DNA of 40,205 nt, from contig JAFRIQ010000010.1 in NCBI GenBank assembly GCA_017432725.1, forward strand, positions 1 through 40,205, given 5' to 3'. The translations under genes and the position numbers were made by a program. This stretch comes from Bacillota bacterium (GTDB taxonomy: Bacteria; Bacillota; Clostridia; Peptostreptococcales; Anaerovoracaceae). Each line of letters opens with the position of its first letter. Positions within the stretch are counted from its first letter, which is position 1. The notes beneath the pieces were generated by a model. That model was not told where the DNA came from, searched no databases, and saw nothing but the letters and a program-made list of their open reading frames with translations. Below, in pieces: positions 20,064 through 40,205 of this stretch.

Positions 20064-23000
20064 ATGAGAGTTAAACGGATCTTTGCAATGATTCTGGCGT
20101 TCATGCTGGTGTTCAGCATACTGCCGGCAACTGTTTTTGCAGAGGAAGTTGGAACCTATACCGTAAAGCATACTATACAGATCACCGGTACGGGTAAAGT
20201 AACGTCAACACTATATAACGACGAGAAGACCTTCGAACATACCGGCAGTGGTACTGCTTCGTACACACATACCGTAACAGTTCCGGCGGATAAACCTTGC
20301 CGTTATCAAATGACGGCAATATCCAATGAAGTCTATGGTTTTGCGGGCTGGTACAAAAACGGAAAATTAGAGCATTCAATGATGGATTATTTTAATATGC
20401 AGCCCGGTTATGCAGTTTCGAGCCCGGAGGCCGGTCAAACCTACGAAGTACCTACTCATGAGGCAAAGTTCGTCGAGCGCAGATACAGTGTGAAGATCCA
20501 CTTCGTGGCTGAAGAGGGCGGATTGGTAAGTCCTGAGCTCTATGAACAACAGAATATTCCGGCAGATAGATGGGAAAGCTTTTCGAGTACTGCGACTCCC
20601 GATAAGCACCATGACTTTGCGGGCTGGTACTATAACGGGAATTTGTTCTCAGAAGATGAAACAATGACGGATAAGGTCAACAGCACATATCTTTATGATC
20701 TTATAGAAAGGACCTATACTGCTAAGTTCACACCTAAATCATACGGTATAGCGTTTGTCGATCCCGACAACGGACATATTTTCGCTGTGGGAGAATATCT
20801 GTATGGCACACCCGTGTCAGAGATCTACGTCCCCGAACCATATGAAAAGGAAGGTCTTGCTTTTGTCGGTTGGAAGGATCTGGAGACCGGGTTTTGGCTT
20901 CAGGATGTCATTGGTTCGGCAACATATGTTGCGCAGTACACCGACCAGTACTATACCGTCAGTGCTTCCTTCAACACGGAAGGAAACGGTTCCGTAACTC
21001 CGGCATCGTTCAGCAAGAGAATACCTGTAGGACAGTCAGTTTCGTTCTCCAGCACGGCGACGCCGGATGAGGGGAACAATTTCCTTGGCTGGTACAAAAA
21101 CGGTCAGCTGTATACGAAAGACGCTACCATGACGGACAGTTTCAGCAGCTCAATTTTACATGAGGTCCTTTCTACTACTTATACCGCGAAATTCGAACCC
21201 ATCAAATATGCAGTGACCGTAAACAGCGGCAGTGGAAGCGGAAACTATGCAGCTGGATCGGATGTCGATATCGAAGCAAATGCGGCTGAAACAGGCATGC
21301 GTTTCAAAGAGTGGGAAGGCGCTGGCGGTTTGACATTTGTTTTAGGAGATGCAAACAGCTCGAAGGCGACTTTCAAAATGCCTGCCGGAGAAGTTACTTT
21401 GACGGCGACATACGAGGTAATTCCTCCTTCATACATTGTGACTGTAAACGGAGGATCCGGCAGTGGAAGCTATGAAGAGGGACAGGAAGTCAGCATCAAG
21501 GCGAATGTTTCTGAGGGAATGCGTTTCTTAAAATGGGAAGCACCAGAAGATCTGGTCTTTACCCAAGGAAGTGTAACCAGCGAAGAAGCAACATTCAAGA
21601 TGCCGGCGAAAGTCGTGGAGATCACAGCTGTATGTGAAGAGATCCCATCTCACAATGTGACGGTGACAGGAGGCACGGGAACAGGAGAATACAAAGAAGG
21701 GGCACTGGTCAGCATCAAAGCTGATACTCCTGAATTCGGCAAGATTTTCAAAGAATGGAGCGGAGCTGAAGAACTTGAGTTTACCCAAGGCAGTGCATCC
21801 AGCGAAGAGGCGACATTCAAGATGCCGACCAAAGATGTAGAGCTCATTGCAACATATGAGAATATAGTAAGCGACTGGGCAACCCTTAAGGCCGAACTCG
21901 AAGCCGGCAGATCCGTAAAACTGTTCTGCGACATTACTCGCGATGCGGCGGAGAATATATACGTCCAAGGAACTGTCTCCTTGGATCTAAACGGCCATAC
22001 GATATACGGCTATGAAAACAACGAGGATACATGGGCCGGTTACAGTATTTTAGTAGTCGAAGACGGAGATACCTTGACCGTAACTGACAGTAGCACGGAA
22101 AAGACAGGCTGTATAATAAATGTATGGGGGACGGATGTAATTTCCGTTTATGGCACAGATGCTGATAACTATGGAAGCTTCGTACTCGCATCGGGGACAG
22201 TGGGCGGACCGTCAACAGCGGTTTATGTCGGTGGGTACGGTCACTTCATGATGACAGGCGGCAGTATAAATACCGGCGGTGGATCAGGTGTAAGCATTGA
22301 TAGCTTCGGTGTCTTCACGATGCAAGGCGGCAGCATTAAGGGTAATCTCGAGGGTGTGGTCATCACTTTCCCGTCAGCATCTTTTAACGTTAGCGGAGAC
22401 GTCGATATCACAGGAAATACTGATAAAGATATCAGCTTATTCAGGCTCGAAGGCGGCAAGTTCAACCCCATCCATATAGAAGGGCCTTTAGCGGAGACCG
22501 CAAGGATAGGAATATATGCCGAGGGTGATGCTGATGACTTTACCGCTTACGAAAGCGAAGAAGAAAACGAAGATATAGTATTCACGGATGGGTTAAAAGA
22601 TAACGGAAATATAGATAACTTTGTTAGCAACAGAGAAGATCTCGCTTTTGGTGTCAGCGAAAACGGCGAATTAGCCATTAGAAAAGGATATAAGCTGACA
22701 GTCAGTGGCGGCTCTGGAAGCGGCCTTTACTATAAAGGTGAGGAGGTAACAATCAAAGCAGACGATCCGGCTGAAGGTATGCGCTTCAAAGAATGGGAAG
22801 GCGAAGATATAGATGATGTATCTTTTGTAGCAAGCGATAAGTATAGTTCTGAGGCAACGATAAAGATGCCTGGAAGCGAGCTGACGCTCACGGCAACATA
22901 TGAAGAGATACCGCCTACGTATAAACTGACTGTGGAGAATGGCTTCGGAGGCGGTGATTACGAAGAGGGAACGGTTATAACCATCAAAGCAGATGATCCG

Positions 23001-23759
23001 GCTGAAGGCATGCGGTTCAAGGAGTGGGCAGGCGCAGACGGAGTCGAATTTACCAAAGGGGATAGGACAAGCTCTGAAGCGACAATAAAGATGCCGGCTC
23101 ATGCCGTAACTTTAACTGCTACCTACGAGGAGATACCCGTTACGGTCTACAAGGTCACAGTAACAAATGACGGAAACGGCACGGCTTCAGCCGATAAGGC
23201 GGAAGGTCCTTCGGGAACTGAAGTCACCCTGACGGCTACACCTAAGACCGGATATAAGCTTAAAGAATGGCAGGTGGTCAAAGGCGGAGTATCTGTTAGG
23301 GACAATAAGTTCACTATAGGAACGGAGGATGTGGAGATAAAGGCCGTGTTCGAAGCTGTAAGTGACAGCGGAAACGGAGACGGAAACGGGACTGGAAACG
23401 GCGATACGGGCTCCGGAAACGGCGGCAGCAATGGATCTGGTTCTGATACCGGAACAGGAACTGGTACGGATGTCGGCAGCGGCAATGGCACCGGCAGCGG
23501 CAGCGGTGACGGCGGAAATGACGGCGCTGCGGAGAATGGCGTTACTACGATCGGAGCGGTGGACGGAAACGGAAGCGGCAATGCCCCTGAAGGCAGCGGC
23601 TCCGAAAGCAGCGAAGGCAGCGCATCCATTACTTCTGCCGAAGTCAATGACGGAGAAAATACAAAGAGCCACGCCAAATTGTGGATCGGACTTTCGGCTC
23701 TGGCCGTCCTTATCATTGCCTGTGCATTGATCTTGATGAAGCGCAAACAGGGCAAATAG
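20064..23759 (+). CDS. Large surface protein with InlB-like B repeats and a beta-helix-like centre
   Basis: A 1231-residue secreted, membrane-anchored protein. A signal peptide (about 1-27, cleavage after TVFA) is followed by four divergent B-repeat units (about 30-375, with GWYKNG or GWK cores) and three more (381-602, with FKEW/LKW and FKMP cores). The middle (602-838) has short repeats rich in Gly such as GGSINTGGGSG and MQGGSIKG, suggesting a parallel beta-helix. Three further B-repeats follow (876-1100), then a Gly/Ser/Asn/Thr/Asp linker (about 1100-1185) and a membrane helix (about 1203-1225) with a KRKQGK tail. There is no LPXTG. It is probably an adhesin. Its A+T content is higher than that of neighbours and it stands alone between terminators, in keeping with an accessory gene. 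Confidence 0.88.
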   Translation: MRVKRIFAMILAFMLVFSILPATVFAEEVGTYTVKHTIQITGTGKVTSTLYNDEKTFEHTGSGTASYTHTVTVPADKPCRYQMTAISNEVYGFAGWYKNGKLEHSMMDYFNMQPGYAVSSPEAGQTYEVPTHEAKFVERRYSVKIHFVAEEGGLVSPELYEQQNIPADRWESFSSTATPDKHHDFAGWYYNGNLFSEDETMTDKVNSTYLYDLIERTYTAKFTPKSYGIAFVDPDNGHIFAVGEYLYGTPVSEIYVPEPYEKEGLAFVGWKDLETGFWLQDVIGSATYVAQYTDQYYTVSASFNTEGNGSVTPASFSKRIPVGQSVSFSSTATPDEGNNFLGWYKNGQLYTKDATMTDSFSSSILHEVLSTTYTAKFEPIKYAVTVNSGSGSGNYAAGSDVDIEANAAETGMRFKEWEGAGGLTFVLGDANSSKATFKMPAGEVTLTATYEVIPPSYIVTVNGGSGSGSYEEGQEVSIKANVSEGMRFLKWEAPEDLVFTQGSVTSEEATFKMPAKVVEITAVCEEIPSHNVTVTGGTGTGEYKEGALVSIKADTPEFGKIFKEWSGAEELEFTQGSASSEEATFKMPTKDVELIATYENIVSDWATLKAELEAGRSVKLFCDITRDAAENIYVQGTVSLDLNGHTIYGYENNEDTWAGYSILVVEDGDTLTVTDSSTEKTGCIINVWGTDVISVYGTDADNYGSFVLASGTVGGPSTAVYVGGYGHFMMTGGSINTGGGSGVSIDSFGVFTMQGGSIKGNLEGVVITFPSASFNVSGDVDITGNTDKDISLFRLEGGKFNPIHIEGPLAETARIGIYAEGDADDFTAYESEEENEDIVFTDGLKDNGNIDNFVSNREDLAFGVSENGELAIRKGYKLTVSGGSGSGLYYKGEEVTIKADDPAEGMRFKEWEGEDIDDVSFVASDKYSSEATIKMPGSELTLTATYEEIPPTYKLTVENGFGGGDYEEGTVITIKADDPAEGMRFKEWAGADGVEFTKGDRTSSEATIKMPAHAVTLTATYEEIPVTVYKVTVTNDGNGTASADKAEGPSGTEVTLTATPKTGYKLKEWQVVKGGVSVRDNKFTIGTEDVEIKAVFEAVSDSGNGDGNGTGNGDTGSGNGGSNGSGSDTGTGTGTDVGSGNGTGSGSGDGGNDGAAENGVTTIGAVDGNGSGNAPEGSGSESSEGSASITSAEVNDGENTKSHAKLWIGLSALAVLIIACALILMKRKQGK

Positions 23760-32914: not shown

Positions 32915-32981
32915 TAAATGAAAAAGTCCCTAAAGGACTCGTTTTGTAATTTTTTAATTGGTAAGAAAGAAGACTAAAGAC

Positions 32982-35219
32982 ATGAAAAGAAAGGTTTTGT
33001 TAGCGCTAGTGCTTGCGTTGGTACTGTGTTTCTCAGCAGTACCGGTGAGTGCGGACGGATATATAGAATATCCGGACGACTTTGAAGTGGACACAATCAC
33101 GAGCTTTAAGCAACTTGATGCTTACATCAAAGCTTCAACAGATTCTGACTATGGAAAGATTGGTAAAATCTACATCACAAAAAGTATTGAAACTAACAAC
33201 TTGGCGGAGTTAGGTGAACTTGGAGATGGATTAGACAGTATTCCTACTATACAAGTAGATAAGAACACCACAGAATGGCCTATCAAGGTATTTCCGGCGT
33301 ATGATTTCACAAACAATGTCTTTACGCAAGGCAAAAATGGAAGGATTTCAGAGGCGCACAAGTTTACGCAAGATTACAAATGGGAGACAAAGCTTCTTTA
33401 TGTATATGCTCTGAATGGGGTTAACAAAAAGGATGGTACTGTTGATCATGGAGTAGTGGATACTAACGGCAATGACATGTTACCGGTCGCTGTAGAGGTA
33501 GAAGGCTTTGACAGAGCGACACAAAGTACAGGGAATATGATTAATTTCTCTTTGGATGAAGCAAATATGACTACTCCGAAAGAACTTAACGTGAAATATT
33601 CGGGTGTACTTCCGTCTGAAACAAACCAGGGATATAACCCCACTTCAGACAACTCCATATCAAAATCATATCATTATTCGATTGGTCTTGAGTATTTGAG
33701 CTCCGTTGGAATTGACGATCATATATTAGTCTTAGGGGCATTCAGGATTACAAAAGCAGATTCCGAAGATAAAGAAAAGCTTCTTGAAGGTGCAAAATTC
33801 AGAGTATACGCAGATTCTAATCTTAGTGAAGAAGCCACACAATATGATGCTGCTACAGACACATGGGTACCAGTAGGTGAAGTTACCACGGGCAGTGATG
33901 GAACCGTCGTTGTCAGTAACTTAAAGGCAGGTACGTATTATGTAAAAGAAACAAAAGCCCCAAATGGTTATTTGATCGATGATGAGAATGCTCATCCTGT
34001 TGAGGTTAAGACCCCGAATGTGTCTTACAGTTTGAGTGGCGGACAGGGTGCTGAGGCAGTGGTTAACCTTAATCCTGTTCAACTCAACCCGGAGTGGGAA
34101 GTTGTCGGTGGCAAAGCAGGAAGAACTCAAACTATGCCTTTTAAATCTGTGGCGGCCACGACGGATTATGCAAATAATTATAACGATGCGGATGTCTTCA
34201 TCCAGGGTGGAGGCAAAACGGTCACAGTAGTCTCCACTGGTGTAGATCTTGCCACTTTGGAAGGTGCATATCAAAATCTTAACGGAACCAAATATGTCGT
34301 CAAAGTCGGCGGTGCTGTTAAAGCTACCGAAGACACCCTTTCAGCAGCAATCCAGTACGTAAACGATACCCTTATCGTTGGAAAGACCATTGACGCTGAA
34401 GGCTATCGTAACCATGTTACGATTGAGCAGACAACTCAAAATGCTATTTATGCTCCCACGGCGGCGGCAACTGATATTGAGACAGTTCCATTCACCGACA
34501 CCGCAACCATCGACTTCAGAGTCGACAAGTCCTGGATCAACCTGACTGCTCCTTGCGATGAAGAATACCTCAGGGTACAGCTCTATCAGGTAGTTGTAGG
34601 AACTGAAGACCCCGGTACACCATATGGACCGGAAGTAGAACTTGCAAAAGACTCAGACTGGACATACACGTGGAAGAATCTCCCCGGCAAGGGATATACA
34701 TACTATGTAAAGGAAGTTTCCGTTCCTCAGAACTATGAGCTCAAGGGAATCGAGTATGGTGAAGGAAAGACCGAAGACGGAAGAGTACTCATCACAGCAG
34801 AGATGACCAACAGCCAGATCATCCAGATCGTTGCCCGCAAGACATGGAAGGGTGATAAGGATGAAGACAGACCTGAAGCAATCAAGGTACAGCTCTACAA
34901 GGACAAGCAAGCCGTTGGAGAGCCCGTTGAACTCAATGAGAACAACAACTGGTCACATTGGTGGGCCAATATGGAAGGCGGACATGACTACGAAGTCAAA
35001 GAAGTCGGTAACGTAGAGGGTTATGTAACGACTACCCCAAGACCTGTCGTGGGTGGAACTGAAGACGGATATATCGTACTTGACTGCGAGATCGTCAATG
35101 AGTTCGCTACCCCGCCGCTCACCTTTGATAACAGCTTCGTCGCACTCGGTGTTGCGTTTGCTATGCTCATTATGGTAGCTGTCCTCAAGAAAAAGATCCA
35201 GAAGACATCCACTAAATAG
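32982..35219 (+). CDS. SpaA/Cna-B type pilin-like surface protein
   Basis: A 745-residue secreted protein, probably a pilus or adhesin subunit. The start is placed at the ATG at 32982, directly before a signal peptide (MKRKVLLAL to the Ala at about 24); the frame is also open from a TTG at 32958. The N-terminal domain (about 25-250) is unrecognised. A SpaA-like domain lies at about 251-346 (GAFRITKADSED, GAKFRVY, AGTYYVKETKAPNGY). Cna-B-like domains lie at about 511-616 (YYVKEVSVPQNY) and 617-710 (ARKTWKGD, YEVKEVGNVEGY); these often form Lys-Asn isopeptide bonds. The C-terminal membrane helix (713-736) has a KKK tail. There is no LPXTG and no sortase nearby. The first two thirds are much more A+T-rich than the last third. 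Confidence 0.88.
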   Translation: MKRKVLLALVLALVLCFSAVPVSADGYIEYPDDFEVDTITSFKQLDAYIKASTDSDYGKIGKIYITKSIETNNLAELGELGDGLDSIPTIQVDKNTTEWPIKVFPAYDFTNNVFTQGKNGRISEAHKFTQDYKWETKLLYVYALNGVNKKDGTVDHGVVDTNGNDMLPVAVEVEGFDRATQSTGNMINFSLDEANMTTPKELNVKYSGVLPSETNQGYNPTSDNSISKSYHYSIGLEYLSSVGIDDHILVLGAFRITKADSEDKEKLLEGAKFRVYADSNLSEEATQYDAATDTWVPVGEVTTGSDGTVVVSNLKAGTYYVKETKAPNGYLIDDENAHPVEVKTPNVSYSLSGGQGAEAVVNLNPVQLNPEWEVVGGKAGRTQTMPFKSVAATTDYANNYNDADVFIQGGGKTVTVVSTGVDLATLEGAYQNLNGTKYVVKVGGAVKATEDTLSAAIQYVNDTLIVGKTIDAEGYRNHVTIEQTTQNAIYAPTAAATDIETVPFTDTATIDFRVDKSWINLTAPCDEEYLRVQLYQVVVGTEDPGTPYGPEVELAKDSDWTYTWKNLPGKGYTYYVKEVSVPQNYELKGIEYGEGKTEDGRVLITAEMTNSQIIQIVARKTWKGDKDEDRPEAIKVQLYKDKQAVGEPVELNENNNWSHWWANMEGGHDYEVKEVGNVEGYVTTTPRPVVGGTEDGYIVLDCEIVNEFATPPLTFDNSFVALGVAFAMLIMVAVLKKKIQKTSTK

Positions 35220-35239
35220 TCTTTAATACCAATTATTTT

Positions 35240-35269
35240 AAGACCCTGCCGTAAAGGCAGGGTCTTTTG
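35240..35269 (+). terminator. Terminator of the pilin-like gene
   Basis: AAGACCCTGCC, loop GTAAA, GGCAGGGTCTT, then TTG, 20 bases after the stop. Confidence 0.88.
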
Positions 35270-35289
35270 TATAGGACATCACGAACATG

Positions 35290-35325
35290 AAGACCCCGCT
35301 GCCTGCGCAGCGGGGTCTTTATGTT
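35290..35325. terminator. Second hairpin between converging genes
   Basis: AAGACCCCGCTGC, loop CTGC, GCAGCGGGGTCTT, then TTATGTTTTG. A perfect 13-bp stem between the pilin-like gene and the DUF523 gene. The T tract is better for the plus strand; it may also stop the minus-strand pyrR transcript. Confidence 0.7.
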
Positions 35326-35339
35326 TTGTTGTGCGTTTT

Positions 35340-35801
35340 TTAGAGTTCTTCGTCGCTCAGGACTTTGAACCCTGCTTGTTTAAGCATTTCCGTGGTGACT
35401 CCGTCTCCTTTTGCCTTGGCTCCGGTGAAACTTCCGTCGTAGATGATATCTTTTCCGCAGCTTGGGCTTCCTGCCTTCAGGACCGCCATGTCTATATCGT
35501 TGAGACGGGCGATCTCAGTAGCTATCTCCGCGCCTTTTCTGTAATTTGCCGTCACATCTTTGCCGTCTTTTGCAAGTACAGCGCCGGGGCGCGTAATGCT
35601 CCTTGTCTCTCCGTCTTTTGTGCGCTGCCTTTCGGAAGGCACGCGGGGAGTCGGCAGACCGCCCAGCTGTTCGGGACATACGGGAATGAGGACCGTATCC
35701 TTGTCTTCTGCCAATGCGAGGACCTTGGGACAGGTCTTCGACTTGGCGTCATATCTGCATTCGTAGCCGAGAAGGCATGCGCTCACAAGTATCTTCTTCA
35801 T
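35340..35801 (-). CDS. DUF523 protein, TudS-like thiouracil desulfurase candidate
   Basis: A 153-residue stand-alone DUF523 protein. It starts MKKILVSACLLGYECRYD, as the family does. Cys9, Cys42 (PVCPEQLGG) and Cys115 (GSPSCG) are the conserved cysteines; in TudS three cysteines hold a [4Fe-4S] cluster that removes sulfur from 2-thiouracil, giving uracil. Cys15 and Cys24 are extra. Its start overlaps the pyrR stop by four bases, so it is the second gene of a pyrR operon and faces upp and a uracil permease. That context supports a pyrimidine role, though the substrate is not proven by sequence. Confidence 0.88.
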   Translation of the reverse strand: MKKILVSACLLGYECRYDAKSKTCPKVLALAEDKDTVLIPVCPEQLGGLPTPRVPSERQRTKDGETRSITRPGAVLAKDGKDVTANYRKGAEIATEIARLNDIDMAVLKAGSPSCGKDIIYDGSFTGAKAKGDGVTTEMLKQAGFKVLSDEEL

Positions 35802-36346
35802 TCGTTTTCTTCCTTTTCATAAAGATCGACGCCTGTCTGTCCGTCCACTTCCTCGAAGGAGACCTTTACCACTTCCCTCTGAGAAGTTGGTACGTTTTTC
35901 CCTACGTAGTCCGGCCTTATGGGCAGCTCCCTGTGACCTCTGTCGATAAGGACTGCTAGACCTATCTTGGCCGGGCGGCCCTGTGAGAATATGGCCTCTA
36001 TGGCCGCTCTAACGGTCCTTCCCGTGTACAAAACGTCGTCGCAGATGATTATCTCTTTCCCATGTATATCGAGCCCCAAATCGGCTTTTTTTACCGTCGG
36101 GTCGGCATCTGCGTGGGAGAGATCATCTCTGTAGAAAGTGATGTCGAGCTCTCTTACGGGAAGCTCTATGCCGCTGTGATTTTTTATATTGGCGGCTATT
36201 CTGCTGGCTATGGGAAGGCCTCTGGTCTTGATGCCTACCAGCACTATTTTCGAGGGATCGGGACTCTTTTCGACTATTTCGAAGGACAGTCTGGTCAGGG
36301 CTCTTTTTACCGCGACCTCGTCCATCAGCTGTACTTTCTTCTTCAT
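35798..36346 (-). CDS. pyrR: PyrR bifunctional regulator/uracil phosphoribosyltransferase
   Basis: A 182-residue PyrR, which binds UMP and then pyrimidine leader RNAs to shut off expression; many also have weak uracil phosphoribosyltransferase activity. The PRPP loop IIICDDVLYTGRTVRAAIEA is near residues 92-111 and the RGHRELPIRPDYVGKNVPTS block near 136-155 is diagnostic for PyrR. Full length. The leader holds a hairpin with a CAGAGA loop that covers the ribosome site, suggesting control of its own translation. It is followed by the DUF523 gene in an ATGA overlap. Confidence 0.95.
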   Translation of the reverse strand: MKKKVQLMDEVAVKRALTRLSFEIVEKSPDPSKIVLVGIKTRGLPIASRIAANIKNHSGIELPVRELDITFYRDDLSHADADPTVKKADLGLDIHGKEIIICDDVLYTGRTVRAAIEAIFSQGRPAKIGLAVLIDRGHRELPIRPDYVGKNVPTSQREVVKVSFEEVDGQTGVDLYEKEENE

Positions 36347-36349
36347 GCT

Positions 36350-36379
36350 GCAATTCCTTTCTCTGAGGGGCTTTATTGC
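36350..36379 (-). promoter_or_regulatory. Candidate PyrR-binding hairpin over the pyrR ribosome site
   Basis: On the minus strand GCAAT (36379-36375) pairs with ATTGC (36354-36350), with an inner CCT/AGG stem and a CAGAGA loop segment (36365-36360). The loop matches the PyrR consensus CNGNGA. The right side contains AAAGGA, the ribosome site for the ATG at 36346. PyrR bound here would block its own translation. Confidence 0.5.
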
Positions 36380-36393
36380 TTCCTTAATAATAT

Positions 36394-36422
36394 ATTGTAC
36401 ATTTTAGGATCGCTTTTTTCAA
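36394..36422 (-). promoter_or_regulatory. Promoter of pyrR-DUF523
   Basis: On the minus strand TTGAAA (36422-36417), 17-base spacer, TACAAT (36399-36394). Transcription would begin near 36387, giving a leader of about 40 bases. Confidence 0.7.
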
Positions 36423-36429
36423 CGCTTCC

Positions 36430-36459
36430 TTGAAAGAGGACCTGGATGAGTGTTAAACT
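36430..36459 (+). promoter_or_regulatory. Promoter of upp
   Basis: TTGAAA (36430-36435), 18-base spacer, TAAACT (36454-36459) with TGT before it. It is back to back with the pyrR promoter; the two -35 boxes are seven bases apart. No PyrR loop is seen in the upp leader. Confidence 0.6.
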
Positions 36460-36508
36460 GAAAAAAGAAAAACAAACGTAAAAAGCGCATAAGGAAAGGC
36501 AGAAATTT

Positions 36509-37168
36509 ATGGACGAATTCTTAAAAAACCTTACGGTATTCGATCATCCCCTCATCAAACACAAGGTGTCTCACCTCTGCGATGTGAATACGGGATCCAA
36601 GGAGTTCTGCGAGCTTGTCAACGAGATGACTACGCTCATGGGATATGAAGTGCTTAAAGACCTTAAGCTCAAAGACGTGGAGATACAAGCCCCGCTCCAG
36701 AAGATAACGACACCCGTGCTCGCTGAGGATATAACGATAGTGCCTATCTTAAGAGCAGGCCTCGGAATGGTGGACGGACTCAGAGCACTGGTTCCCACGG
36801 GAAAGGTGGGTCACGTGGGTCTTTACAGAGATGAAGAGACTCTTCAGCCCGTGACTTACTATTTCAAACTTCCCGTAGACGCGGCAAAGGATCAGGTGAT
36901 CATAGTGGATCCCGCTCTTGCCACGGGTGTGTCCGTCGATGCAGCCATAAAGTACTGCAAGGAAGCCGGATGCACGAGGATAAAAGTCATGTGTATATTC
37001 GCCGCAAAGCAGGGACTTGAGCTGGTATACAAGAACCATCCGGACGTAAAGGTGTACTGCGCCAATTATTCGGACCAGCCGCTCAATGAAAAGGGATACA
37101 TACTTACGGCGGCAGGCGACGCAGGGGACAGAGTCTGCGGTACGGTATCGTATAAACCGCAGAAGTAA
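36509..37168 (+). CDS. upp: Uracil phosphoribosyltransferase
   Basis: A 219-residue Upp that joins uracil and PRPP to make UMP. The PILRAGLGMVDG motif near residue 79 and the PRPP-binding DPALATGVSVDAAIKYCK near 131 are clear, and DAGDRVCGT near the C terminus is typical. One variation is ATGVS where ATGGS is usual. AAGGAAAGG lies before the ATG. It works with the uracil permease downstream and sits divergent to pyrR. Confidence 0.95.
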   Translation: MDEFLKNLTVFDHPLIKHKVSHLCDVNTGSKEFCELVNEMTTLMGYEVLKDLKLKDVEIQAPLQKITTPVLAEDITIVPILRAGLGMVDGLRALVPTGKVGHVGLYRDEETLQPVTYYFKLPVDAAKDQVIIVDPALATGVSVDAAIKYCKEAGCTRIKVMCIFAAKQGLELVYKNHPDVKVYCANYSDQPLNEKGYILTAAGDAGDRVCGTVSYKPQK

Positions 37169-37185
37169 TGTATATGGAGGATAAT

Positions 37186-38097
37186 ATGATGAAGAAAACA
37201 ATTGCTTTTTTGATGATACTGGTCATGATGCTTTGTCTTGCGTCATGCGGCGGTGCTTCGGACGGAGGGAAGGAAGACAAGGAAGTCGATATTTCTGCGA
37301 TCAACGAAGTAATATTCGATAATGACGATCTTCAGGTCGTTTTTGCAGGCGCTGAATATAGTGAGAACGAACAGGGAAACCATGTTCAGTATAATTTCAG
37401 GTTCCAGCTGACCGGCAAGAAAGGGGATCCGATCTATGCATACATAGATATGTATCCTTTCAGCATAAACGGAGTGATGTGCAATCTTCAGGATGGTGAT
37501 TACCTGATCTTCAGTCAGAGCGCGAACCACAAGAATACAGACCCTGTGAACGGCACGGTACTTGATATATACAGTGTAGATATCAAAAAAGATACGCAGG
37601 AAGCGATAGGCCAGCCGGGCAGGATAGACTGTATACTAAAATACTCTCTGAACGGAGAAGATTACAGGTATGTGCCTCTTTCCTTCCAGGTCGGGAAAAA
37701 CAATCAGGAGCTGCCGGACACGCAGAATATCAGTTTGGAGCTCGTAAAGGGAGATAACTACACGCAGGATATGGTGAAACTTAAAAATGCCGGAGACTTC
37801 GATGCTGTTCTGGTCGTAAAATACTACCTTGGTGATGAGAGTTATTTCATGTATAACAGCAGGGAAGAGCGTTTTTCCGGGCCCTTTATAAGGTCGCTGA
37901 GCCTTGAAGCAGGCGAGGATATCACTTATGATATGTTTGCCACGTACTTCATGTTCTCGCAGTATCCGATCGACCAATATAACGTAGAATCCACGGCAAT
38001 GCACGATCCGGAAGGAAATCTCGTTTTCGCGAAGTATGAAGAAGGGCTTCAGGAATGGCACGTGGAGCTTCTGTACTGCCTGAGAAAAGTTGAGTAG
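37186..38097 (+). CDS. Putative lipoprotein of unknown function
   Basis: A 303-residue protein with a lipoprotein signal: MMKKTIAFL, a hydrophobic core and the lipobox LASC followed by Gly-Gly, so it should be lipid-anchored on the outer face of the membrane. The mature part is acidic and beta-rich, perhaps two Ig-like or similar domains (about 35-160 and 160-300). No family recognised. GGAGG ends 5 bases before the first ATG (37186) and 8 before the second (37189); either may be used. The frame is open to 37168, but that start lacks a ribosome site. It follows upp closely, but a link to uracil is not evident. Confidence 0.8.
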   Translation: MMKKTIAFLMILVMMLCLASCGGASDGGKEDKEVDISAINEVIFDNDDLQVVFAGAEYSENEQGNHVQYNFRFQLTGKKGDPIYAYIDMYPFSINGVMCNLQDGDYLIFSQSANHKNTDPVNGTVLDIYSVDIKKDTQEAIGQPGRIDCILKYSLNGEDYRYVPLSFQVGKNNQELPDTQNISLELVKGDNYTQDMVKLKNAGDFDAVLVVKYYLGDESYFMYNSREERFSGPFIRSLSLEAGEDITYDMFATYFMFSQYPIDQYNVESTAMHDPEGNLVFAKYEEGLQEWHVELLYCLRKVE

Positions 38098-38112
38098 TTT
38101 TTGACTTAAAGG

Positions 38113-38147
38113 GGCGGCTTTTCCGTTGACAGAAAAGCCGCCTTTTG
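38113..38147 (+). terminator. Terminator after the lipoprotein gene
   Basis: GGCGGCTTTTC (38113-38123), loop CGTTGACA, GAAAAGCCGCC (38132-38142), then TTTTG. The loop contains the TTGACA of the next promoter. Confidence 0.85.
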
Positions 38148-38154
38148 ATACTAT
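38126..38154 (+). promoter_or_regulatory. Uracil permease promoter nested in the terminator
   Basis: TTGACA (38126-38131), 17-base spacer, TACTAT (38149-38154). It would start RNA near 38161, giving a leader of about 166 bases that holds the PyrR attenuator. Confidence 0.75.
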
Positions 38155-38176
38155 ATCGAAGGATAAATACATTGAT

Positions 38177-38280
38177 CTTTAAATCCAATACAGAGATATT
38201 GGCAAGGAAATGTAACGGCGCTGCGGCGCGGTGATTTTGAGAAGCAGACCTTGCCAAAAAAGGCAAGGTCTTTTGTTTTG
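38177..38280 (+). promoter_or_regulatory. PyrR-type attenuator in the uracil permease leader
   Basis: Three mutually exclusive elements are visible. Anti-antiterminator: CCAATA (38185-38190), loop CAGAGA, TATTGG (38197-38202); the loop matches the PyrR consensus CNGNGA and CTTT/AAGG may extend it. Antiterminator: TTGGCAAGG (38199-38207) is perfectly complementary to CCTTGCCAA (38249-38257). Terminator: AGACCTTGCC (38246-38255), loop A6, GGCAAGGTCT (38262-38271), TTTTG. PyrR-UMP would hold the first hairpin and so free the terminator, cutting uracil uptake when UMP is plentiful. Confidence 0.82.
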
Positions 38281-38326
38281 GACTTAAAGAAAAAACGGAT
38301 CGAAATCGAGTTAAAAGGAGACAAAA

Positions 38327-39745
38327 ATGAAACTGATCTACGACGTACATGAAAAACCGAAGGGAAGAGAAAATCTTCTTTTCGCATTTCAGCAGATGAT
38401 CGCCATTATGGCGGCAACACTCCTCGTTCCTATGATCATGAGCGGAAACGGACTTCCCTCTGATCCGGCTGCTGCCCTTTTCGGCGCAGGCTGCGGAACA
38501 CTTATCTATCTTCTCTTCACAAAATCTGAGAGCCCCGTATTCCTGGGAAGCTCCTTCACCTTCCTTCCGGCATATGCCGCATCGATCGGTGCAGGCTACG
38601 GATACTGGGGAGTCATCATCGGCGTAGCTATCGCAGGTCTCGTATACGTAGTCTTCGCTCTCATCATCAAAGTTTCGGGCAGCGGATGGGTCAACAAACT
38701 CATGCCGGCAGCCATCGCAGGCCCCATAGTCACACTCATCGGACTTTCCCTTTCCGGAACAGCCACGGGCTGGATGGCATCCAACGGCGGAGACAACAAG
38801 AGCATCCTGTACATCGTAGTCGGTCTCTTCACCTTCTTCGCAATAGTATATTCTTCCGTAAGAGGAAATAAGAACATGAAGTTCTTCCCGTTCATCTACG
38901 GAATAGGCGCAGGATATCTCCTCGCCTTAGTGCTCACCATCATAGGAAGAGTTGCGGATATCCCGGCTCTTCAGATCACAAGCTTCGATTCCTTCGAGGC
39001 GGCTTTCGGCACGTTCTCCATAAAGTCCATAGTAGACGTTCCCAAGCTCTTCATCATAAGAGCGGTACAGACAAACGGCGAATATGCCGCCATCGACTGG
39101 TCCGCAGTAGTGACCCTTCTCCTGATCTACGCTCCCATAGCAGTGGTAGAGCTTGCTCAGCACGTAGGAGATCACAAGAACCTCGGTAATATAATAGGAA
39201 AAGATCTCATCTCTGAACCGGGTCTCGACAGGACTCTCCTCGGAGACGGTGTCGGCTCCATGGTAGGTACCTTCCTCGGAAGCTGCGCCAACACGACATA
39301 TGGCGAATCCATAGGCTGCGTAGCCATCACAGGAAACGCATCCACATACACCATCAGAACGGCAGCGTTCGGATGCATGCTGCTCTCCTTCTTCACACCT
39401 TTCGTTGCCCTCATCAACTCCATACCCAAGTGCGTGATGGGCGGTGCCTGCGTTGCCCTCTACGGTTTCATCGCAGTATCCGGACTCCAGCTCCTCTCGA
39501 AGGTCGACCTTGGAGACAACAGGAACCTTTATCCTGTAGCAGCCATCCTCGTATGCGGCATAGGCGGACTTACGATCAGCTTCGGACATAACGCAGCGAC
39601 AGGCGGAAGCCTCTTCACACTCACGGCTCTTGCAGTAGCTATGATAGTAGGTATCATAACCAGAAAGATCGCAGGAGAAGGCTCTGAAGCCCAGAGCATA
39701 GATGCTGCCGTAGCAGACTACAAAGACGTCGACTTCGGAGACTAA
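38327..39745 (+). CDS. uraA: Uracil permease (NCS2 family)
   Basis: A 472-residue uracil:proton symporter with the 14 hydrophobic segments of the NCS2 fold. Family marks include FAFQQMIAIMAATLLVP near residue 18, PVFLGSSFTFLPAYA near 69, VVELAQHVGDHKN near 269 (the Glu binds uracil in UraA) and TTYGESIGCVAITGNAS near 324 with a second conserved Glu. Length is slightly over that of E. coli UraA. AAAAGGAG precedes the ATG. Expression is probably set by the PyrR attenuator ahead of it. It supplies uracil to Upp. Confidence 0.95.
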   Translation: MKLIYDVHEKPKGRENLLFAFQQMIAIMAATLLVPMIMSGNGLPSDPAAALFGAGCGTLIYLLFTKSESPVFLGSSFTFLPAYAASIGAGYGYWGVIIGVAIAGLVYVVFALIIKVSGSGWVNKLMPAAIAGPIVTLIGLSLSGTATGWMASNGGDNKSILYIVVGLFTFFAIVYSSVRGNKNMKFFPFIYGIGAGYLLALVLTIIGRVADIPALQITSFDSFEAAFGTFSIKSIVDVPKLFIIRAVQTNGEYAAIDWSAVVTLLLIYAPIAVVELAQHVGDHKNLGNIIGKDLISEPGLDRTLLGDGVGSMVGTFLGSCANTTYGESIGCVAITGNASTYTIRTAAFGCMLLSFFTPFVALINSIPKCVMGGACVALYGFIAVSGLQLLSKVDLGDNRNLYPVAAILVCGIGGLTISFGHNAATGGSLFTLTALAVAMIVGIITRKIAGEGSEAQSIDAAVADYKDVDFGD

Positions 39746-39820
39746 AAAAAAGAGGAAATCAGCAGAAGGATCCTTCCTTCCGTGACTGAAAAGTACTGAA
39801 AATACTACATTTTGTGGTTT

Positions 39821-39853
39821 AAAAAAGGGCACTGCACAAGGCCCTTTTTTTAG
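39821..39853 (+). terminator. Terminator of the uracil permease gene
   Basis: AAAAAAGGGC, 10-base loop, GCCCTTTTTTT, 76 bases after the stop. A-rich before and T-rich after. Confidence 0.85.
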
Positions 39854-39886
39854 TAAAAAAACTTGTAAAAAAGTGCAAAAAAGTTG

Positions 39887-39915
39887 TTGACAAACCAGGG
39901 GCAAAACATTAGAAT
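39887..39915 (+). promoter_or_regulatory. rRNA operon promoter
   Basis: Consensus TTGACA (39887-39892), 17-base spacer, TAGAAT (39910-39915), about 270 bases before the 16S start. Preceded by A/T-rich runs like an UP element. Confidence 0.8.
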
Positions 39916-40186
39916 AAAAAAGCTCGCCACAAGAGCGGGCAATGTACCTTGAAAACATCGAATAGTGTAGAAAACTAAGTCAAGAGAAAAGAATCAAGTT
40001 TCTTTTCAGACTTAAGTACAACCAATCACTTTATGAGATTGGTAAGGAACCAAATAAATGGTTCCCTGTACGATTCCAAAACAAAAACAATAATTTCGCA
40101 AAGCGAAAAAGCGCAAAGCGCATCTAAAGAGTCAAAAGACTCAAACTTGATTTGAGCAAGGCTTTAGTGCCTTGATCAGATACCAT
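39916..40186 (+). other. Pre-rRNA leader with a chain of stem-loops
   Basis: Contains a GCTCGCC/GAGCGGGC hairpin, then GTACCTTGAAAAC (about 39943-39955), which resembles the conserved leader element near boxA in Firmicutes. Next comes a long hairpin AAGTC...GACTT (39977-40013). At least six short hairpins follow: CCAATC/GATTGG (40022-40042), GGAACCA/TGGTTCC (40046-40065), TTTCGC/GCGAAA (40094-40108), GCGC/GCGC (40111-40121), GAGTC/GACTC (40129-40142), and CAAGGC/GCCTTG (40157-40174). No coding frame seen. These may guide processing of the 16S precursor. Confidence 0.7.
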
Positions 40187-40205
40187 TCAATTAAGAGTTT
40201 GATCC
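40187..40205 (+). rRNA. rrs: 16S ribosomal RNA, 5' end only
   Basis: AGAGTTTGATCC (40194-40205) is the universal 5' sequence of 16S rRNA, used as a primer site. By analogy with E. coli numbering, the mature end lies about seven bases upstream. The gene runs off the window. Confidence 0.9.

Follow-up and report, generated by a model that had tools for sequence, protein, structure and literature searches.

We analysed a 40,205-nucleotide stretch of DNA (contig JAFRIQ010000010.1 of GCA_017432725.1, forward strand), here called the window, from a genome that carries the code G000, and focused on the locus around its tudS gene, part of which is quoted above (35,340 to 38,097). tudS encodes a stand-alone DUF523 protein and is read directly after pyrR on the minus strand, and divergently from these two genes lie a second uracil phosphoribosyltransferase (UPRT) gene, which we call upp2, and, past the end of the quoted piece, a permease gene. 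This layout agrees with a sequence-only reading of the same DNA, which had described a four-base overlap between pyrR and tudS and the presence of upp and a uracil permease on the opposite strand. As set out below, we conclude that the locus is a real, rare, and conserved salvage cassette containing tudS. Its features are as follows.

35340..35801, minus strand: tudS, stand-alone DUF523 (2-thiour_desulf) protein of 153 residues, assigned by its PF04463 match and alignment with 6Z92
35798..35801, minus strand: ATGA overlap of the pyrR stop codon and the tudS start codon (the plus strand reads TCAT)
35798..36346, minus strand: pyrR, pyrimidine attenuation regulator and UPRT-type protein of 182 residues, assigned by NCBIfam PyrR models
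36394..36422, minus strand: promoter-like site for pyrR-tudS, TTGAAA-17-TACAAT, 10 of 12 positions, a consensus match only
36509..37168, plus strand: upp2, divergent second UPRT whose base-binding loop reads TAAGDAGD instead of PGLGDAGD, assigned by TIGR01091
37168..38097, plus strand: lipoprotein-like open reading frame (ORF), from the ORF call; start, judged by eye, probably ~37186
38126..38154, plus strand: promoter-like site ahead of the permease, TTGACA-17-TACTAT, its second hexamer preceded by TG, a consensus match
38173..38278, plus strand: PyrR-binding-site element RF00515 with a CAGAGA hexaloop on a 6-bp stem, 40.8 bits (gathering score 54)
38246..38271, plus strand: attenuator terminator AGACCTTGCC-AAAAAA-GGCAAGGTCT with a T-rich tail, from the alignment and a terminator scan
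38327..39745, plus strand: NCS2-family permease, uraA-like, of a cassette-specific clade, from PF00860 and the tree

On profile and alignment scores, we regard the family assignments of tudS, pyrR, and upp2 as firm. TudS matched PF04463 over the whole domain (profile positions 1 to 141 of 141) with 140.6 bits against a cut-off of 34.7 and matched the solved TudS structure 6Z92 almost end to end (phmmer E 1.1e-27, 100 bits). Its residues C9, C42, C115, E44, S112, and S114 align with Cys10, Cys43, Cys104, Glu45, Ser101, and Ser103 of 6Z92 (numbering from PMC10611767). The three cysteines, already singled out as conserved in the sequence-only reading, are, like E44, invariant in all 44 aligned TudS rows, with S112 present in 43 and S114 in 40. 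The protein carries this one Pfam family only and so is not a fusion of the RudS type. PyrR exceeded both NCBIfam cut-offs (240.7 versus 138 for NF003549 and 227.7 versus 218 for NF003548), and Upp2 exceeded that of TIGR01091 (229.4 versus 208.35) and matched a solved UPRT structure over nearly its full length in a sequence search. The permease passed PF00860 (219.4 versus 27). In the draft home genome, this pyrR is the sole PyrR match at E values up to 1e-25, and the window tudS is the single tudS found.

The same genes recur together elsewhere. tudS, pyrR, and a permease of the same clade occur together in three genomes besides that of the window (G027, G379, and L032), and upp2 is present in three of the four cassettes. 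In the window and in G379, pyrR-tudS is divergent from upp2-permease (with the lipoprotein-like ORF intervening in the window); in G027, upp2-permease-pyrR-tudS all run in one direction; and in L032 the order is pyrR-tudS-permease, with no upp seen on a contig whose end lies 228 bases before the pyrR ORF. The permease thus varies in place (downstream, upstream, or divergent), and in all four cassettes tudS comes directly after pyrR, with an overlap or a gap of at most ~15 bases. The cassette permeases are 63 to 78% identical to that of the window. The carrier G379 came from a permease search of the family, which matched 4 of 296 genomes at E 1e-70 (identities of 100, 78, 76, and 51%, the 51% match, in G365, sitting on a 3.3-kb contig), and L032, a metagenome-assembled genome (MAG) named Ruminococcus sp., came from a tudS scan of public genome contigs, as 1 of 13 loci. 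The permease search of a phylum sample matched 3 of 398 genomes, including that of the window; the other two permeases were 52 to 53% identical, the 13 to 15 kb read in each case gave no match to tudS or pyrR, and one of the two was followed by an ordinary upp. The drafts are 75% (G000), 77% (G027), and 77% (G379) complete and L032 is a short MAG contig; absences are weak evidence. No description of the cassette in print was found in a full-text literature search, most subscription papers being outside its reach.

In trees made by short searches, with support only from the Shimodaira-Hasegawa-like approximate likelihood ratio test (SH-aLRT), the cassette copies of pyrR, the permease, and upp2 each formed one clade (98, 100, and 100, respectively). 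The window PyrR is 72% identical to that of G027 and 56% identical to that of G038, a member of the window's own genus, and the cassette therefore seems not to follow the species tree. The tetranucleotide make-up of the cassette correlates at 0.85 with window bases 1 to 30000, and two other contigs of the home genome gave 0.85 and 0.89; this host-like composition speaks against a mis-binned contig or foreign DNA of recent origin and implies that transfer, if there was any, was not recent. A plasmid source was also rejected, since the relatives of the permease in 454 plasmid records were all below 60% identity, the top-ranked at 36.6%.

The permease is preceded by a candidate PyrR-type attenuator. 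In a search of the entire home genome with RF00515 at E values up to 10, the top match (65.9 bits, above the Rfam gathering score of 54) lay upstream of a pyrC-K-D-F-E-B-carB operon (the products of pyrC, D, F, E, B, and carB each exceed at least one curated NCBIfam cut-off, whereas pyrK is the best-matching function for its gene yet falls under its cut-offs). The permease-leader element ranked second (E 2e-4), and the third match scored 26.9 bits. Such elements precede the permease in all four cassettes (47.4 bits in L032, 44.1 in G379, 41.6 in G027, and 40.8 in the window), ending 33 to 49 bases ahead of its start. By eye on the alignment, each of the four leaders has a -35/-10 pair, a hairpin with a CAGAGA loop, and a terminator. 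The loop agrees with CNGNGA, which we take to be the PyrR hexaloop consensus, as does the CCGTGA loop of the pyrC element in the home genome. In the window, the 5' arm of the terminator is complementary, again by eye, to TTGGCAAGG, the 3' side of the PyrR hairpin, which gives an antiterminator, and across the four leaders the 5' arm of the terminator, which reads ACCTTGCC or ACCTTGTC, is able to pair with GGCAAGG, or in L032 with GACAAG, on the 3' side of the hairpin. Two stem pairs of the L032 hairpin are altered on both sides (C-G to U-A and A-U to G-C) with the loop unchanged; one stem pair is broken in G379, and one terminator pair is broken in G027. PyrR control of the permease, and hence of import, is well supported. 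In G027, alone of the four, tudS follows the element as part of a colinear run, and it is in G027 only that layout supports a predicted PyrR control of tudS, so that the PyrR-controlled tudS copy proposed in the sequence-only reading finds support in that layout and not in the window, where the element precedes the permease. PyrR is described as binding pyr mRNA and disrupting the antiterminator (PMC10970046).

The second Upp is unusual in its base-binding loop, which reads TAAGDAGD in all three cassette Upps and PGLGDAGD in all 32 others compared, GDAGD being retained in the cassette proteins. The comparison set comprised 28 distinct Upps from the best-matching loci of the class together with the ordinary copies of G000, G027, G038, and G533. 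At sites invariant in all 32, the three cassette Upps share, among others, Met136 to Ala in DPMLATG, Cys119 to Phe, and Pro-Gly-Leu 200-202 to Thr-Ala-Ala, and they also have one extra residue before LN. The TAAGDAGD proteins are encoded at 36509-37168 of the window, 7251-7916 of L044, and 3485-4144 of L077, and for two of the three carriers an ordinary upp was found elsewhere in the genome (G000 C68 and G027 C47). Among 60 evenly drawn genomes of the family, a second, lower-scoring upp was present only in G000 and G027 (229.0 and 224.7 bits versus 271.6 to 302.8 for the other complete matches, compared by eye), and among the matches listed from 391 class genomes no Upp outside the cassettes was more than 58% identical to the cassette form. 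Toxoplasma UPRT holds the base through main-chain contacts of Y227, I229, G234, and F236, with A168 also near (PMC10970046); by a step of our own, these contacts may be placed on the altered Upp2 motif. The pocket changes, and the fact that cassette-like Upps were not seen outside cassettes, led us to the tentative proposal that Upp2 has been neofunctionalized, its reworked pocket (Pro-Gly-Leu to Thr-Ala-Ala, and Met to Ala in DPMLATG) taking 4-thiouracil and passing 4-thio-UMP (UMP, uridine monophosphate) to TudS under PyrR in a dedicated thiopyrimidine salvage operon. We regard this as doubtful. A protein that has lost this conserved glycine could just as well be poorly active or inactive (compare the eukaryotic UPRTs lacking glycines in PMC4536494).

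What TudS acts on bears on the order of steps. In PMC10611767, the kcat/Km values of two characterized TudS enzymes are 7.8e6 and 7.6e6 per M per s for 4-thio-UMP versus 2.9e3 and 3.3e3 per M per s for 4-thiouracil, the free base being handled more than 2000-fold less well. In Staphylococcus aureus, Upp is required for the entry of 4-thiouracil into RNA (PMC12210855). Because of these kinetics and this requirement, we place Upp before TudS, the reverse of the sequence-only reading, and the likelier order would be import, phosphoribosylation, and then desulfuration.

We directly observed the gene content and order, how the sequences are related, the PyrR-type attenuator that is conserved ahead of the permease, and the intact active-site residues of TudS. 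The reading that we favor, with a rough probability of 0.62, is that the second Upp, the NCS2 permease, PyrR, and TudS form a co-inherited pyrimidine salvage cassette that would allow the cell to use thiolated as well as normal uracil and to come to no harm from either. The permease would import uracil and 4-thiouracil; Upp2, the ordinary Upp, or the UPRT activity of PyrR would make UMP and 4-thio-UMP; and TudS, as a three-cysteine [4Fe-4S] desulfidase, would convert 4-thio-UMP to UMP, including that released from the cell's own tRNA bearing 4-thiouridine (s4U). UMP-bound PyrR favors the terminator, and in the cassette UMP-loaded PyrR would bind the leader hairpin, the terminator would form, and permease transcription would stop. 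Translation of tudS directly after pyrR would keep the desulfidase coordinated with the regulator. ThiI was detected in 9 of the 10 genomes tested, the home genome among them (359 bits), and so s4U made by the cell itself is a possible source too. The core idea of the sequence-only reading, that desulfuration is tied to PyrR-controlled uracil salvage, is strengthened by the finding of pyrR and the permease with tudS in four genomes, of upp in three of them, and of the attenuator; it is the substrate and the order of steps in that reading that are probably wrong.

The closest competitor overlaps with our reading and invokes the same chemistry, namely, that the cassette imports uracil and TudS serves for detoxification only, keeping 4-thio-UMP formed from incoming 4-thiouracil out of RNA. 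4-Thiouracil is toxic through Upp, and TudS of Clostridioides difficile relieves this toxicity (PMC12210855). However, the same reaction yields usable UMP, and the C. difficile enzyme is reported also to permit 4-thiouracil to serve as a nutrient (work cited in PMC12210855). We consider a role in detoxification alone rather unlikely.

We also considered that the linkage is fortuitous, with TudS acting as a general recycler of 4-thio-UMP and its place behind pyrR being an accident of gene order inherited with the cassette. The surveys lend this some weight. Among the 60 family genomes, tudS was found in 46, pyrR in 16, and both in 13, and in just two tudS-bearing genomes, G000 and G027, do pyrR and upp adjoin tudS. 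Among 297 genomes of the order, pyrR was found in 185 and tudS in 263; of at least 115 genomes listed with both genes (pairs that include lower-scoring rows added from the family searches), 30 had them on the same contig and 85 on different contigs, and the window genome was the only one among the matches listed with the two within 10 kb. A general DUF523-pyrimidine linkage was therefore dropped, and the pyrimidine bias of DUF523 neighbors by which the sequence-only reading proposed to be judged fails in this family. Instead, the commonest tudS context seen in the family is mutS2-tudS-argS, without obvious functional logic. At 28 family tudS loci (L002 to L030, L011 excepted), the 53 flanking ORFs that were 110 residues or longer included MutS2 at 17 to 18 loci and ArgS at 8 to 9, with no pyrimidine synthesis or salvage enzyme among the best 25 of 37 and the best 25 of 54 families. 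In one tudS clade of 21 loci searched with tblastn, mutS2-tudS-argS was found at 19 (L003 1-3432 and 18 others among L005 to L029), argS alone at 1, and neither at 1; the cassette tudS falls outside this clade. In the window's genus, 2 of 11 genomes have a tudS match, G000 and G448, the copy in G448 being 40% identical and lying on an 8-kb contig that carries none of the cassette genes. The cassette may stem from one founding event, and the home genome has one tudS. Nevertheless, the close pyrR-tudS adjacency survives rearrangement in all four cassettes, and we consider accident unlikely. Least probable is the route of the sequence-only reading, in which TudS makes uracil from free 2-thiouracil and Upp then makes UMP, since, although DUF523 proteins do convert 2-thiouracil to uracil (PMC10611767 and PMC6225789), the former source gives no saturable binding of 2-thiouracil, turnover 50- to 100-fold slower than with 4-thiouracil, and a strong preference for 4-thio-UMP, so that both substrate and order were probably wrong.

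Several observations weigh against the reading that we favor. The permease falls under the cut-offs of the uracil permease model NF007995 (253.6 versus 477) and of TIGR00801 (229.4 versus 291.8), and because these curated cut-offs were missed, “uracil” permease is a family-level label, its substrate being deduced from gene position. The cassette is rare: at 60% identity or more, the permease was found in 3 of 296 family genomes, including the window's, and among the 398 phylum genomes in that of the window alone. The tudS of L032 did not join those of the window, G027, and G379 with support in the tudS tree, where the latter three group at 94 (not starred). All four permease elements score below the Rfam gathering score, and a gathering-level Rfam scan of the window listed no RF00515; at E values up to 10, RF00515 also matched in 9 of 14 control genomes, in 2 of them over the cut-off. 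The CNGNGA loop on a stem of at least 5 bp occurs at six sites in the window, so that the hairpin alone is not rare. Promoter-like sites (8 versus 5.4 ± 2.1 expected from shuffles) and terminator-like sites (10 versus 4.6 ± 2.7) are in modest excess in the region, and for these reasons the case for the attenuator rests on position, whole-structure score, and conservation. The single RF00515 element at 35200-40205 (E up to 1) is the one before the permease, with none upstream of pyrR-tudS, so that pyrimidine control of tudS itself is not established in the window. Finally, ThiI was not found in G027, one of the 10 genomes tested, and all four genus-mates tested for both genes (G038, G357, G383, and G401) have ThiI with no tudS match; thus, s4U production does not require TudS.

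A candidate PyrR element before pyrR-tudS was rejected: CAGAGA occurs 144 bases into this leader of 162 bases, but it is flanked by a single base pair, and there is no Rfam match at E values up to 1. The lipoprotein-like ORF that separates upp2 from the permease leader had no family match in a profile scan and no counterpart in the other three cassettes. The pairing of pyrR with a permease is ordinary, since a different NCS2 permease (30 to 34% identical to that of the window) lies near pyrR at 13 of 15 noncassette pyrR loci of the family (L047, L048, and L050 to L062). Window positions 20064-23759 and 32958-35219 encode large surface-type proteins, with six stretches of divergent InlB B-repeats and with SpaA/Cna_B domains adjoining tudS. 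Between the SpaA/Cna_B gene and tudS (35220-35339), two similar tandem terminator-like hairpins were seen by eye, and they probably account for a weak Thr_leader score there (28.6 versus a gathering score of 55).

So far, the cellular role of TudS rests on mutants and on kinetics measured for a few enzymes. The cassette suggests, as genomic evidence, that the handling of thio-uracil is part of pyrimidine salvage, and it offers a way to test the order of the steps and whether a UPRT evolved for thio-bases; the surveys show that tudS-pyrR linkage is rare and that tudS is often located elsewhere. Compared with the TudS of 6Z92 (PMC10611767), the window protein has the same single PF04463 domain, three cysteines, glutamate, and two serines, with a near full-length match, but it is encoded behind pyrR in a salvage cassette and is known here from its sequence. 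The tudS pathway through which C. difficile uses 4-thiouracil and is protected against it (cited in PMC12210855) employs the same enzyme family, and pyrR has been named genetically in C. difficile and S. aureus and upp in S. aureus; in the window, by contrast, the genes are physically joined in a single cassette, together with a PyrR attenuator and with an Upp that is a paralogue. Known PyrR attenuation, which acts on pyr genes and uracil permease (RF00515), uses the same CNGNGA hairpin, antiterminator, and terminator, and its other target in the home genome is the pyr operon, whereas the cassette elements stay under the gathering score, and in G027 tudS is among the genes that follow the element. 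RudS (PMC11417400), a fusion of TudS to DUF1722, shares the TudS domain with the window protein, which lacks DUF1722. We regard the cassette as extending known biochemistry, not as a system of a new kind.

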